This document shows, one piece after another, positions 17,813-25,745 of a stretch of 64,000 nucleotides of DNA. The stretch is from positions 19,361-83,360 of the forward strand of contig JAFGYB010000057.1 of NCBI GenBank assembly GCA_016936355.1, written 5' to 3'. The notes under the pieces are model-generated. The model was not told where the DNA came from and made no database searches. It saw only the letters and a program-made list of their open reading frames with translations. Origin of the DNA: Bacteroidales bacterium (GTDB taxonomy: Bacteria; Bacteroidota; Bacteroidia; Bacteroidales; F082). A program made the position numbers and the translations under genes. Positions within the stretch are counted from its first letter, which is position 1. Each line of letters opens with the position of its first letter.

Positions 17813-18122
17813 CAACCCCTTCGTTTCATTGTTCATCGCTTTGTCGCACCGCCCACATCCTTAAATGAGGCTCCGCGCAATGACACATTTTTTCTTCGTG
17901 CTGATCGAATTTCGCCTGAGGAACGTGAAGGATCTCTGCTTGGAAGCAGACTCCAAGCATCATCCCGATAGCGAATCCTATCTGAAATCCCGGGCTTACA
18001 ATTTTTTTAAACGCAGGAAAAGGACTCTATTGTTAATCCCTAATTAATAATCAATTACGCTTGCCTTTCTACCGTTAATTTGTTACCTTAGCAAAGGAAC
18101 TATATCAACTAATGCCTGAGCT

Positions 18123-18488
18123 ATGAAACACACAATCCAATATGATGAAAAACATCATGCATTGCTTCAAACCATAAACGGGTACTTTACTACTGAAGAA
18201 ACAAGACAATTCAGCCCTTTGTACCAGAAATTGCTGGAAGGAAAACCGAACCGGCACCTTGTGGTTGATTTACGAAATGCGGGGAAAATGGAAAACCGCG
18301 AAACCCGTCAGGAAACCAATAAAACACTCAACGAAGCCAAAATTACCCAGGTAGTCTTTGTGGGTGCCAATGCAGCCCAACGCATGATTGCCAAAGTATT
18401 AATGAAACTGGGGTCATTAAATGCCGAGTCCAATTTTGTAAAAGACATGGACGAAGCTTACCAATGGCTTGAAAAAAGGAGGACCTAA
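18123..18488 (+). CDS. SpoIIAA/STAS-like small protein
   Basis: 121 aa alpha/beta protein with LVVDLRNAGKMENRETRQE and C-terminal DMDEAYQWLEKR; first gene of the stressosome-like cluster. Confidence 0.55.
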   Translation: MKHTIQYDEKHHALLQTINGYFTTEETRQFSPLYQKLLEGKPNRHLVVDLRNAGKMENRETRQETNKTLNEAKITQVVFVGANAAQRMIAKVLMKLGSLNAESNFVKDMDEAYQWLEKRRT

Positions 18489-19174
18489 TGATGAACGACA
18501 CCAAAAAAGATTTAAAAAACCGCATCAATCACATCGAAGATGTATTGGCTTCGGTAGCTGCCGGCGATATGGAAGCACGGATTAACAGTGAAATCGAAGA
18601 CGATTTGAGCGGTATTGAGGCGGCCATCGACCTGCTGATTGAAGATCTTACCGATGAGTTGAAAAAGCGCGAAGTCATGCAAAGAGAAGTGGAGGACAAA
18701 CTGGCCAAAATCCAGGAGCAACAAAAAACCATCTTACAGCAACAACAGGACCTGCTGGAACTTTCAAGTCCGGTATCCAAAGTTTGGGACAATGTACTGA
18801 TCCTGCCGGTCATCGGCACGCTCGACAGCCAGCGCACACAGGTTATGATGGAAAACCTGCTGGAAAAAATAGTAGAAACCGGTTGTACGGTTGCCATCCT
18901 TGACATTACCGGTGTTCCCACGGTGGACACACAGGTAGCCAACCACCTGTTAAAAACCGTTACTTCTGCCCGTTTGCTGGGAGCCGAATGCATCATCTCC
19001 GGCATCAGTCCGGCCATTGCACAAACCATTGTCCACCTGGGCATCGACTTGTCCTCTATTCGTACCAAAGCCACTCTTCAGGATGCCATGATTTTTGCCA
19101 TGAAACAAAACAAACGATCAGAAGATTCCAGACCTCATTCGAGGTTTGCCGATGCTGATGAAAAAAATGAATAA
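18488..19174 (+). CDS. RsbR-like stressosome STAS protein with HAMP-like/coiled-coil N-terminus
   Basis: AILDITGVPTVDTQVANHLLKTVTSARLLGAECIISGISPAIAQTIVHLGIDLSSIRTKATLQDAM closely resembles RsbR; both phospho-Thr contexts (VDT, AQT) present. Confidence 0.88.
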   Translation: MMNDTKKDLKNRINHIEDVLASVAAGDMEARINSEIEDDLSGIEAAIDLLIEDLTDELKKREVMQREVEDKLAKIQEQQKTILQQQQDLLELSSPVSKVWDNVLILPVIGTLDSQRTQVMMENLLEKIVETGCTVAILDITGVPTVDTQVANHLLKTVTSARLLGAECIISGISPAIAQTIVHLGIDLSSIRTKATLQDAMIFAMKQNKRSEDSRPHSRFADADEKNE

Positions 19175-19570
19175 ATGAATACCGACCTACAAGAAAAACG
19201 CATTCCCATCATTAAAATCAGGGATTTTCTCATCGTGTCCATTCAGGTTGACATGCACGACAGGTTGGCCATCAAGTTACAGTCACAAATTTTAGAAGAA
19301 ATTGCAAAAACCGGCGCCAAGGGAGTCCTCATTGACATCTCGGTATTAGAAATGGTAGATTCTTTTATCGGACGCATGCTTTCAGGCATGGCCACCATGG
19401 CTTCCATTATGGACGCAGCCGTCGTGATTGTAGGCATGCAACCAGCTGTTGCCATCACACTCGTTGAGCTGGGACTGGATATGCCCGGAGTGGATACCGC
19501 CCTGAACATGGAAAAAGGAATGGAAATGCTGGAAAAACGAATGCGCGACCAGCAAGTTGAGGACTTCTAA
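19175..19570 (+). CDS. RsbS-like stressosome STAS scaffold protein
   Basis: IDISVLEMVDSFIGRMLSGMATMASIMDAAVVIVGMQPAVAITLVELGLDMPGV, with the DSFIG phospho-Ser context. Confidence 0.9.
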   Translation: MNTDLQEKRIPIIKIRDFLIVSIQVDMHDRLAIKLQSQILEEIAKTGAKGVLIDISVLEMVDSFIGRMLSGMATMASIMDAAVVIVGMQPAVAITLVELGLDMPGVDTALNMEKGMEMLEKRMRDQQVEDF

Positions 19571-20007
19571 TGCCCAAAACCATGTTTGAACAGACAACGG
19601 ATAAAAACTGGTCGTTGCTCGATAAGCAAGTCCTCGAAACCGAATACGACATCGTAAGAATACGGCAATTGATACGTTCTCACGCCAAGGGAATCCAAAT
19701 GGGTATTGTGGACCAAACCCGTATTACTACTGCAGTCAGCGAGCTGTTAAGAAACATGTATAACTATGCCAACGGTGGTGAAGTACAAATAGAAACCGGT
19801 CCCGTTGAAGGGAAGATGGCACTCATCATCACCTGCAGCGACCACGGACCGGGCATTGAAAACCTGGAAATGGCCATGAGCGACGGATACACCACTGGAA
19901 TGGGATTGGGTTACGGACTACCCGGCGCCAAACGGCTGGTGGATAAATTTGAGATAGAAACACAAAAAGACAAGGGAACAACCGTAAGGCTGATAAAATG
20001 GAGATAG
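19570..20007 (+). CDS. RsbT-like serine/threonine kinase (GHKL anti-sigma-factor-kinase type)
   Basis: RITTAVSELLRNMYNYANGGEVQIE (N-box), DHGPGIENLE, TGMGLGYGLPGAKRLVDKFEIET. Confidence 0.9.
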   Translation: MPKTMFEQTTDKNWSLLDKQVLETEYDIVRIRQLIRSHAKGIQMGIVDQTRITTAVSELLRNMYNYANGGEVQIETGPVEGKMALIITCSDHGPGIENLEMAMSDGYTTGMGLGYGLPGAKRLVDKFEIETQKDKGTTVRLIKWR

Positions 20008-21059
20008 TAAGAAATCACATACTCAACCTGCCCATCGACAATGAATCCGACGTGGGAAACTGTCGCCGAAAAGGAGTGGCTATCGCCAAAGAAATGGGCT
20101 TTAATGAGGTGAAATCAAGCGAAATCGCCATTGTGATTTCCGAACTGGCCACCAACGTATTGCAACATGGCGGAGGCAGGGGCAAAATGTTGATCTGCCA
20201 GATCGAGGATCACGAAAAACAAAAAGCCCTGGAAATCTGGTGTTACGACACAGGAAATGGCATTTCAAACATTGAAAAATCCATTCAGGACGGCATCACC
20301 GAAAAAAAATCGCTGGGTCTTGGGCTGGGCTCCATCAGACGCCTTTCCGATGAAATGGAAATCAACCCCGACATACCACTTCTTTTAAAGGAAACCCTCG
20401 GGGCTGAGATTTTCAAATACAACCATTCGATCCGCACTTTAAAAAAATTCCCCGGTAAAAAATGGGTGGGTACCAACAGGTCGCTCATTGTTGGAGCATC
20501 CTCCAGGTGTCATTATGGTGAAACCATCAACGGGGATGCCTTTCTGTTCAGTCACCTGAGTGCCACCCGCACCCTTGCCGCCGTCATCGACGGGCTGGGA
20601 CATGGGAAGGAAGCCCACCTGGCTTCGGATCTCATCCGGGAAAAGATTCTTTCAAGCCCCGATCTGTCACCCGACAAACTCATCAGCCACATTCACACTT
20701 CAGTGCGTGGTACCCGGGGGGCGGTGATGGGCCTTGCCAGCATCAATACTGAAACCAACAAGCTTTCTTTCTCGGGAATAGGCAATATCGAAAGTTTTAT
20801 TGTGACCAGACAAGGGAAAAAAACATTATTGTCTTTTGCCGGAATTATCGGACACAACATCCGTACCCCCAGAATATTTGAATGTGATTTTGAACCGGGA
20901 GATGTTCTTTGCATGTATTCCGATGGCATTACCACCAGGTGGAGAACGGAAGACATCGACTGGAACGCGTCCCCGCAAAAAAATGCCGAACTGATAACAA
21001 ACAAATACGCACGGCCCAATGACGACGCTACCATTCTTATCGTCCGCTACGCTCAATAA
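19998..21059 (+). CDS. RsbX-like SpoIIE/PP2C phosphatase with N-terminal RsbT-like GHKL domain
   Basis: N-term [16 protein letters not shown] ... [13 protein letters not shown]-term [40 protein letters not shown]. Confidence 0.88.
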
Positions 21060-23298
21060 AGCAGGCGAGGTACAAGTGCTCCTGGAAGCAGACGTGGTAA
21101 GGGTGCGCAACATTGCCACCATGCTCTCACAGGAGCTGCAATTCGACAGAACCACCTGCATTCGTATTGGGACCGCCGTCTCGGAACTGAGCCGAAACAT
21201 GATTGAACATGCCCACGGAGGGAGCATCACTTTTTACATTACAGAAAGAAAAGCGAAATCGGACGGTATTGTTATCGTTTTTGCCGACAAGGGAAAAGGA
21301 ATTGAAAACCTCGAAGAAATTCAATCGGGAAAGTTTAAGTCAAAAATGGGGATGGGCGTAGGCCTGGCAGGCTCCCAGCGGTTGATGGACGACTTTCACA
21401 TTGAGTCGGTCAATGGAAAAGGCACTACCATTACCATTGCAAAATGGTTGCCTCCGTTCACTTCACCCCTTTCTGCCGAAAAGATCGCTACCATGCAACA
21501 GGTATTTGCCAAAATTATAAGCCGCGGCGATGCCAGTATGGTCGAAACCATCAACGAGCAGAACAACGAACTCCTGTTTATCCTGAAAGAACTTCAGGAG
21601 CGAAACAACGAAATCGAAATGATCAATCAGGAACTGGAGGAAACCAACCGGGGCATCGTAGCCCTGAATGCAGAACTGGAAGACAAAGCCGAAGCCATCG
21701 AAAAAGCAAAGATTGAAGCAGAAAAAGCCAACAAAGCCAAAAGTGAATTTCTTGCCAACATGAGCCACGAAATTCGCACGCCCATGAATGGGATCAATGG
21801 TATGCTGGAACTGGTAATGACTTCGGACCTCACAGAAGAACAAACACAGTTTCTCACCATGGCCAGCGAAAGTGCCGATATTTTACTGAGTCTGCTGAAT
21901 GATATCCTCGATTTCTCTAAAATTGAAGCCGGACAGCTGGAACTGGAAGAAGTCGATTTTCAGATTCGGAATGTCATAGAAGGTGTTTCTGATGTCGTCA
22001 TTCAGAAAATTGAAGACAAGGGGCTTGAACTGAACCTGTTCATCGAAAGTACCATACCCAAATTTGTCATCGGTGACCCGGTACGGTTACGACAAGTCAT
22101 CATCAACCTGGTGGGGAACGCCATCAAATTCACCAGGGACGGGGAGATCAATATTTCCGTTCAGGATCACTCCGGTTCCGCACCGGAAAACCACCCACTC
22201 CCCGGCAATCAAATCGAGATATTGTTTACCGTCGAAGATACGGGCATAGGGATTGCCGAAGAAAAACAAAAAGCCATCTTCGAAAGCTTTTCACAGGCCG
22301 ACACCTCCACCACACGCAAATACGGCGGTACCGGACTGGGACTTACCATCAGCAAAAACCTGGCGCACCTGATGCAAGGCGACCTGTGGGTTAAAAGCCA
22401 ACCCGATCAGGGCAGTACTTTTTATTTCACTGCCCGGTTTTTGAAGTCCGAACGAGCCAAAGAAGACGCATTACAAATACCCGATAAAATCCACAAACTT
22501 CATGTACTCATACTGGATGACAACAAAACAAACCGCATGATCCTGAACAAGATGGTACAAAACTTTGGTTTTAGTACCGATGTCTTTGAAGTCCCCGATG
22601 AGGCAATCAAGGCATTTCTTGCAGCAAAAAAGGATGCGTACGACCTGATTATTTCAGACTATCAGATGCCCGGGATGAGCGGTCTCAATGTGATAGAAGC
22701 CATCAGAGAAAAATCCGATGTGCCGACATTGATTCTGACGTCCGTCGGATTGTGGAGCAACAGAAAAACATTAGGCCAACTGAAAAACACTGAATTCCTG
22801 ACAAAACCCGTAAAACAATCTGTATTGTACCATGCCATCCTGAAAATTATGGGCGTATCCGATGGTTCCGTTCAAAAGGAAAAAACACAACTCCTCGAAT
22901 CCATCCTCGAACGATTACAGTCGTTGTCAGGGGAAACAAGGGTACTGCTGGCGGAAGACAACATCATCAACCAACGGGTTGCAGCGGCAGTCATTACCAA
23001 AATCGGACTTCAACTGGATATTGCGGGCGATGGCACCGAAGTCCTCGAAGCATTGCAAGAAAGAGAATACGACATCGTGCTGATGGATGTTCAGATGCCC
23101 ATTTTGGACGGCTTGATGACCACAAAGAAGATTCGTGAAAATCCAAAAATGAAACACCTGCCCATTATTGCCATGACTGCCAACGCCATGAAGGGCGACC
23201 GGGAGCGGTGCCTCGAAGCAGGAATGAACGACTATATGTCCAAACCCATTAAGTTGGAAACCCTGATTGGCATTCTCGAGAAATGGCTCATTAAATAG
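21019..23298 (+). CDS. Hybrid histidine kinase: RsbT-like GHKL + coiled coil + HisKA + HATPase_c + REC + REC
   Basis: N-term [48 protein letters not shown] (His at 21766-21768); second HATPase [15 protein letters not shown]1 [18 protein letters not shown]2 [15 protein letters not shown]. Confidence 0.92.
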
Positions 23299-25253: not shown

Positions 25254-25500
25254 GATATGTGTATTAAAGGGTTGAGTTAAAGGTACAAAAAATTATCCGC
25301 TTGGGCAAAGGCTTCCTTTTGTAGCCACTAACCTTTAGTTTTTCCGGACTTTGATGTTGTGTACTTAAAATTAAATGTTCTGTTAATGAATTATCCCGCA
25401 GAAAAACAGCTTATTCGTGCGCTTATTTTCAAAATACCTGTTTTTATCATCAATTTTTGTGTCATTTTATTGGTTTTTTCAGTTGTGTGTGTCTTATTTT

Positions 25501-25640
25501 CGGGGGGTGTTCTATTCTTCTCGGGGGGTGTTCTATTTTCCTCGGTGGGTGTTCTATTCTTTTCGGTTGGTATTCTATTCTCTTGTGCCGAGTTTCCGTT
25601 CTGTTGTGCTGAACTTCCATTATTCTGTGCCGATTTTCGG
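25501..25640. repeat. 21-bp tandem repeat, four clear plus two to three degenerate copies
   Basis: CGGGGGGTGTTCTATTCTTCT / CGGGGGGTGTTCTATTTTCCT / CGGTGGGTGTTCTATTCTTTT / CGGTTGGTATTCTATTCTCTT then GTGCCGAGTTTCCGTTCTGTT / GTGCTGAACTTCCATTATTCT / GTGCCGATTTTCGG. Confidence 0.85.
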
Positions 25641-25745
25641 TTCCGGAAACTACATTCTTAAAAAAACCAAACAGAAAAAGCAACTTACCGGGACAACCAA
25701 TAACTTTGGCGGATCGTTGTCGTTCCTTTTTTAAAGCAAATTCAA

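Follow-up and report, generated by a model that had tools for sequence, protein, structure and literature searches.

Gene content of the operon

The DNA analysed here is a 64,000-nt stretch of a Bacteroidales genome (the window), and all coordinates below are positions within it. Six co-directional open reading frames (ORFs), g1 to g6, lie at 18123-23298 on the + strand and likely form an operon of the RsbR/S/T/X (RSTX) stressosome type, with the hybrid histidine kinase g6 as its likely output. The first 148 residues of g6 are an RsbT-like GHKL domain. The genes and the N-terminal features of g6 are as follows.

18123..18488, + strand: g1, SpoIIAA-like protein (PF11964), 121 aa (Pfam)
18488..19174, + strand: g2, RsbR-like protein with a short HAMP-like/coiled-coil N-terminus and a STAS domain (Pfam STAS, 3.2e-16)
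19175..19570, + strand: g3, RsbS-like STAS protein with Ser63 in a DSF motif (Pfam STAS, 1.1e-8; PDB matches)
19570..20007, + strand: g4, RsbT-like switch kinase, free, 145 aa (Pfam HATPase_c/HATPase_c_2, 1.4e-12; alignments; tree)
19998..21059, + strand: g5, RsbX-type phosphatase with N-terminal GHKL domain and PP2C domain of the SpoIIE family (Pfam HATPase_c_2, 3.1e-10; SpoIIE, 5.4e-15)
21019..23298, + strand: g6, hybrid histidine kinase with RsbT-like domain, long helix, HisKA (H250), HATPase, receiver (D547) and receiver (D690) (Pfam; motif positions)
21019..21462, + strand: RsbT-like GHKL domain of g6, aa 1-148, with N-box, G1 and G2 intact (42% identity to g4; HATPase_c_2, 2.2e-13; AlphaFold2)
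21475..21720, + strand: continuous helical linker of g6, aa 153-234, with a conserved QN-x-EL-type motif, leading to HisKA (AlphaFold2; alignment)

The g1/g2 and g3/g4 junctions are 1-nt overlaps, g2 and g3 abut, and the overlaps are 10 nt between g4 and g5 (T/X) and 41 nt between g5 and g6 (X/K). These ORFs and junctions are those described in an earlier, sequence-only reading of the window, which had also named RsbR-, RsbS- and RsbT-like proteins, an RsbX-like phosphatase and a hybrid kinase; Pfam, PDB matches and conserved sites bear out these identities. The g3 product matches RsbS chains of solved stressosomes (6jhk, 5.5e-31; 2vy9, 6.2e-29; 6qcm, 5.5e-28), its PDB RsbS matches spanning 5.5e-31 to 1.1e-11, and its D62-S63-F64 motif is invariant across the aligned set. 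In g2, Thr148 and Thr180 align with the invariant threonines of RsbR proteins, also when compared with RsbR from Bacillaceae (Mesobacillus). The N-terminus of g2 is HAMP-like/coiled coil, not globin; assignment of a HAMP domain proper was rejected, as matches stayed below threshold (best value among homologues, 0.0022). The g4 product falls in the RsbT group of the domain tree, in agreement with RsbT alignments. The PP2C gene g5 directly follows the RsbT gene, as in Vibrio-type RSTX modules; its product is not a single-domain PP2C and carries an extra N-terminal HATPase_c_2 domain. Judged by these motifs, the locus combines what an RsbRST module calls for, namely an RsbS with the DSF serine, an RsbR with two threonines and a single-GHKL RsbT encoded beside RsbS.

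No RsbU, RsbV/RsbW or sigma factor was found among the operon genes by Pfam, and no sigma-, diguanylate cyclase- or RsbU-like product was recognized by reading the window's long ORFs; across the whole genome, GGDEF and RsbU_N gave zero matches. The absence of such genes nearby, as claimed in the sequence-only reading, was therefore confirmed. Its proposal that the output runs through the hybrid kinase stands as the likely one, but had been argued from these missing genes only, and the RsbT-like N-terminus of g6 had been overlooked.

The kinase carries an RsbT-like domain

The Pfam domain order of g6 is HATPase_c_2, HisKA, HATPase_c and two receivers; RsbU_N (PF08673) was not found at its N-terminus by Pfam. 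A search of the whole genome with g4 as query revealed only three sites, all in the operon: g4 itself, the N-terminus of g6 (42% identity, 6e-23) and the N-terminus of g5 (34%, 5.6e-10). As the g6 N-terminus is RsbT-like, the operon carries three RsbT-type domains, one free, one tethered to the phosphatase and one tethered to the kinase. The AlphaFold2 model of g6 (nine sequences, pLDDT 86) shows a GHKL fold and, after it, a single uninterrupted helix (residues 153-234) that runs to HisKA. The nearest solved folds to the domain model are SpoIIAB structures with bound SpoIIAA or sigma-F (1th8, 1l0o, 1tid).

Among 85 domains placed in a tree, RsbT proteins and the RsbT-like domains of kinases (referred to below as tags) cluster together (SH-aLRT 95), separate from the phosphatase GHKL domains, whose own clade has a support of 99/96 in the careful tree. 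An N-box arginine follows the same division, being present in 34/37 free RsbT proteins and 22/22 kinase tags and in 0/25 phosphatase GHKL domains. The catalytic residues E56, N60, D90, G92, G94, G113 and G115 are intact in g6 and conserved in 22/22 full-length tags. A single origin of the kinase-tethered domains is no more than possible: they formed a clade in a quick tree (88), which was absent from the careful tree, although a single origin was not rejected there (p-AU 0.47).

RsbT-tagged kinases in other RSTX loci

Surveys covered 173 genomes of the window's family, 393 genomes of its order, 396 genomes of the wider Bacteroidota, and plasmid-collection records. Where the phosphatase is of the GHKL-PP2C type, the next kinase is RsbT-tagged in 30/32 loci (23 full length, 7 degenerate). 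Outside Bacteroidota, tagged kinases occur in Deinococcus, Alphaproteobacteria and Paraburkholderia; full-length tags were found in Bacteroidota, Deinococcus, Sphingomonas, Salipiger, Alloyangia, Phaeobacter and Paraburkholderia, and the kinases that bear them vary (HisKA or HisKA_2/HWE, with or without receivers). In loci with a PP2C-only phosphatase, the RsbT tag occurs in 0/7 and an RsbU_N kinase in 5/7; of these five, four rest on a Pfam test of the kinase itself, in one case with a score slightly short of the cut-off, and the one in L086 was assigned by near-identity to L085. Over all kinases of this other design given to Pfam, PF08673 was recovered in 6/6, one of them slightly short of the cut-off. 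RsbU_N and the RsbT tag never occurred together on one kinase in the loci sampled.

The degenerate tags belong to seven Bacteroidota loci (L082, L083, L087, L129-L132) of the same class as the window and with gene order kept. They retain RsbT helices 1-2, up to the N-box, and have lost the G1/G2 (ATP) motifs; for two of the seven, kinship to RsbT was recovered by hhalign (3.5e-9 and 8.3e-8). That the helices presumed to bind a partner persist where ATP binding is gone agrees with a docking role, which the degenerate tags thereby suggest. The QN-x-EL-kind motif of the linker can be aligned across kinases of three phyla, including those with degenerate tags.

Two loci from Deinococcus were noted besides. 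In Deinococcus radiodurans MP1 (L078, 5391-10473; DR_RS15570-15595), all of R-S-T-X is present in one operon together with the RsbT-tagged hybrid kinase DR_RS15590, and a receiver-kinase comes next. On a plasmid of Deinococcus psychrotolerans (L070, 1-2927), the gene for an RsbT-tagged histidine kinase overlaps that for a receiver-diguanylate cyclase, and c-di-GMP is a possible output.

Conservation of the cassette

A high-scoring RsbT was found in 10/173 family genomes, and all ten carry all three RsbT-type domains. Nine of these have a hybrid kinase of about 760 residues and the tenth (G030) a 460-residue variant; in one of the nine (G589), the kinase reading frame is broken in two. The order survey added four complete cases. 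The kinase is kept in 10/10 family genomes and in 4/4 of these further genomes with a high-scoring RsbT; its consistent absence from homologous loci had been named beforehand as one outcome that would speak against the module.

The identical order g1-R-S-T-X-K was found in 14 genomes from at least five families (the window, L034 from a Draconibacterium metagenome-assembled genome, L038 and L110-L120). In 14/14 of these cassettes T and X overlap by 10 nt; X and K overlap by 41 nt in 11 and by 38 nt in two, with an uncertain start in one. Because the order and the T/X overlap recur in all 14, and the X/K overlap in most, the arrangement is not due to chance. The window's genus is represented by 11 further genomes, and none of them has the cassette, which indicates a patchy distribution by frequent loss or by transfer. 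A near-identity search of plasmid records with the entire module gave nothing useful. In one cassette (L113, 8296-10575), a frameshift or an assembly error in the HisKA/ATPase part divides the kinase into ORFs of 320 and 434 aa.

The first gene of the cassette

The sequence-only reading had remarked on an extra STAS-like first gene. As a conserved part of the cassette (14/14) this gene, g1, proved real, but its product is SpoIIAA-like (PF11964, 6.5e-7, over the cut-off; 12/13 homologues match the same family) and not a canonical STAS protein. No paralogue of g1 was found in the genome. Its Asn58 aligned with the phospho-Ser58 of SpoIIAA (1th8_B) in a weak alignment (E 0.049), and the equivalent site is Ser or Asn among relatives. 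With Asn at the phospho-Ser position, g1 is probably no phospho-switch in this organism; an accessory role as a SpoIIAA-like ligand or regulator is probable. An AlphaFold2 model of g1 was unusable (pLDDT 44).

Putative phosphorelay output

The kinase g6 carries H250, D547 and D690 and has no HPt domain. A partner response regulator, whose absence had been pointed out in the sequence-only reading, was indeed not found within the operon; g6 itself, however, has two receivers, and the genome encodes one free-standing HPt protein (L121, 6230-6577), one CheA-like protein with HPt and 67 receiver matches. A relay from the two receivers via an unlinked HPt is thus possible, the free-standing HPt protein being a plausible intermediate. 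In four cassettes (L110, L111, L112 and L116), extra kinase genes lie upstream of g1 that are possibly relay partners; they encode large hybrids of 1416-1687 aa in three cassettes and a 387-aa receiver-kinase, partial in L112.

Putative promoter element and neighbouring sequence

A scan for sigma-70 promoters gave matches not above those in shuffled sequences, and a Bacteroidota-type -7 motif was then sought. One further feature resulted.

18082..18095, + strand: putative Bacteroidota promoter -7 element, TACCTTAG (consensus TANNTTTG), approximately 39 nt upstream of g1 (predicted from sequence)

A TANNTTWG motif lies approximately 39-58 nt ahead of g1 in 10/14 cassettes. Elsewhere in the window, short ORFs with a repeated GGVLFFS-like peptide at 25359-25734 probably represent a degenerate DNA tandem repeat.

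Relation to known stressosome systems

RSTX modules with two-component outputs are already known (PMC9237108), so that the module class is not new, as the sequence-only reading had said. With the Bacillus subtilis/Listeria stressosome, the operon shares a STAS core with conserved Ser/Thr sites, an RsbT-type switch kinase and a PP2C reset phosphatase. It differs in lacking RsbU, RsbV, RsbW and SigB, in having a histidine kinase with an RsbT-like domain as output, in the extra GHKL domain of RsbX and in an RsbR without globin domain. The modules of Vibrio vulnificus and V. brasiliensis with D1-D2 two-component output likewise consist of a minimal RSTX set followed by a hybrid histidine kinase and have no SigB (PMC9237108, PMC4976288, PMC10014275), whereas their RsbR is a haem-globin protein, their RsbX has a single domain and their D1 is a PAS-type kinase with HPt. 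RsbU_N was missing from most downstream kinases in the Vibrio study, and RsbT-D1 binding was not found (PMC9237108). The Vibrio homologue in our sample (L124) has no significant RsbT-like or RsbU_N domain on its kinase. A hidden RsbT domain in this D1-type kinase, suspected from a likeness by eye, did not reach significance and is not claimed (hhalign E 0.075; score 16.7 versus a shuffle maximum of 18.2). The kinase itself, from Vibrio sp. THAF191d (L124, 6960-10133), has approximately 125 residues without assigned domain ahead of PAS.

RST operons of Moorella and Proteobacteria with RsbU_N-tagged kinases or diguanylate cyclases likewise wire the output by way of an adaptor at the N-terminus and a coiled coil (PMC12143880, PMC9237108). 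Their adaptor is the RsbT-binding helical domain RsbU_N, whereas here it is an RsbT-like domain itself. RsbK of the Bacillus cereus RsbK-RsbY system is a hybrid histidine kinase with a signalling helix in a SigB-type stress pathway; unlike g6, it replaces the stressosome, feeds SigB and occurs without RsbRST (PMC3999984, PMC4574943).

A literature search yielded no description of an RsbT-like domain on an output kinase; figures, subscription papers and the original RsbRST output-module review (Pane-Farre 2005) were beyond its reach. The legend to Figure 3 of PMC9237108 names HATPase_c among the listed domains. Given these limits and this entry, we hold with moderate confidence that the design of RsbT-tagged output kinases has so far gone unrecognized.

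Proposed mechanism and alternatives

We give about an even chance to a stressosome whose output kinase is tethered to the core by its RsbT-like domain, is switched by phosphorylation of the core and feeds a phosphorelay. RsbR and RsbS would build the STAS core, RsbT would phosphorylate it under stress, and the GHKL-PP2C protein would reset it. The kinase g6 would dock on the core via its RsbT-like domain and so compete with free RsbT, perhaps also with the phosphatase GHKL domain. Phosphorylation of the core would alter docking, and the change would run along the long helix and switch HisKA. Phosphate would next move via both receivers to an HPt protein encoded outside the operon, and on to a regulator. 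The sequences show the gene content, the domain architecture, the intact motifs, the conserved cassette and the kinship of the kinase tag to RsbT; core assembly, docking, the direction of the switch, the HPt step and the output are what we infer for this operon. A precedent for control through a linker is the activation of RsbU by free RsbT via a coiled-coil linker (PMC12143880).

Several points weigh against this reading. The locus counts given above are not phylogenetically independent and describe rather than test. Two loci (L074 and L127) combine a GHKL-PP2C phosphatase with an untagged kinase, so the RsbT tag is not obligatory. Finally, the intact ATP motifs in the g6 tag suggest more than passive docking. 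The domain might accordingly be an active second STAS kinase that phosphorylates RsbS, RsbR or g1, which would make g6 a bifunctional Ser/Thr- and His-kinase feeding back on the core and not merely docked to it. Its predicted fold matches SpoIIAB, a STAS kinase, and its intact catalytic motif residues are those conserved in all 22 full-length tags. However, the loss of the ATP motifs in the seven Bacteroidota loci with gene order kept means that activity of the tag is dispensable there, and a dedicated RsbT is always present; we consider an active second kinase unlikely.

Less probable still, free RsbT released from the core could bind the kinase, as with RsbU, the RsbT-like domain of g6 giving only a pseudo-dimer surface. 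SpoIIAB-type GHKL proteins dimerise, which speaks for such an arrangement. It would also follow B. subtilis logic and corresponds to the reading proposed for RsbU_N kinases (PMC9237108, PMC12143880). RsbU_N, however, is missing from both g6 and the genome and was not seen together with an RsbT tag on one kinase, and in the published test the VvRsbT-VvD1 interaction was not positive, VvD1 being a different type of kinase (PMC9237108). That g1, with Asn at its phosphosite in this genome, is a permanent ligand of the g6 RsbT-like domain and forms a side switch apart from the RsbR/RsbS core is very improbable: although g1 accompanies this kinase type in every cassette, occurs in no other RSTX locus examined and varies between Ser and Asn at the phosphosite, RsbT-tagged kinases of other phyla sit in operons without g1, the SpoIIAA alignment is weak and the g1 model failed.

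Taken beyond this operon, tethering of the kinase to the core by its RsbT-like domain would represent a third, apparently undescribed wiring of stressosome output, in which three RsbT paralogues (free, phosphatase-tethered and kinase-tethered) compete for one STAS core. It would span Bacteroidota, Deinococcota and Pseudomonadota, with the kinase tag a catalytically dead docking module in some lineages; we put this wider picture tentatively, at slightly less than an even chance. The arrangement suggests how a stressosome may signal onward in the absence of a sigma factor, and the degenerate tags offer a natural experiment in which docking and catalysis are uncoupled. An output kinase with a built-in RsbT-like domain is a concrete, testable answer for the whole operon class, including that of Deinococcus radiodurans (L078), a tractable organism.

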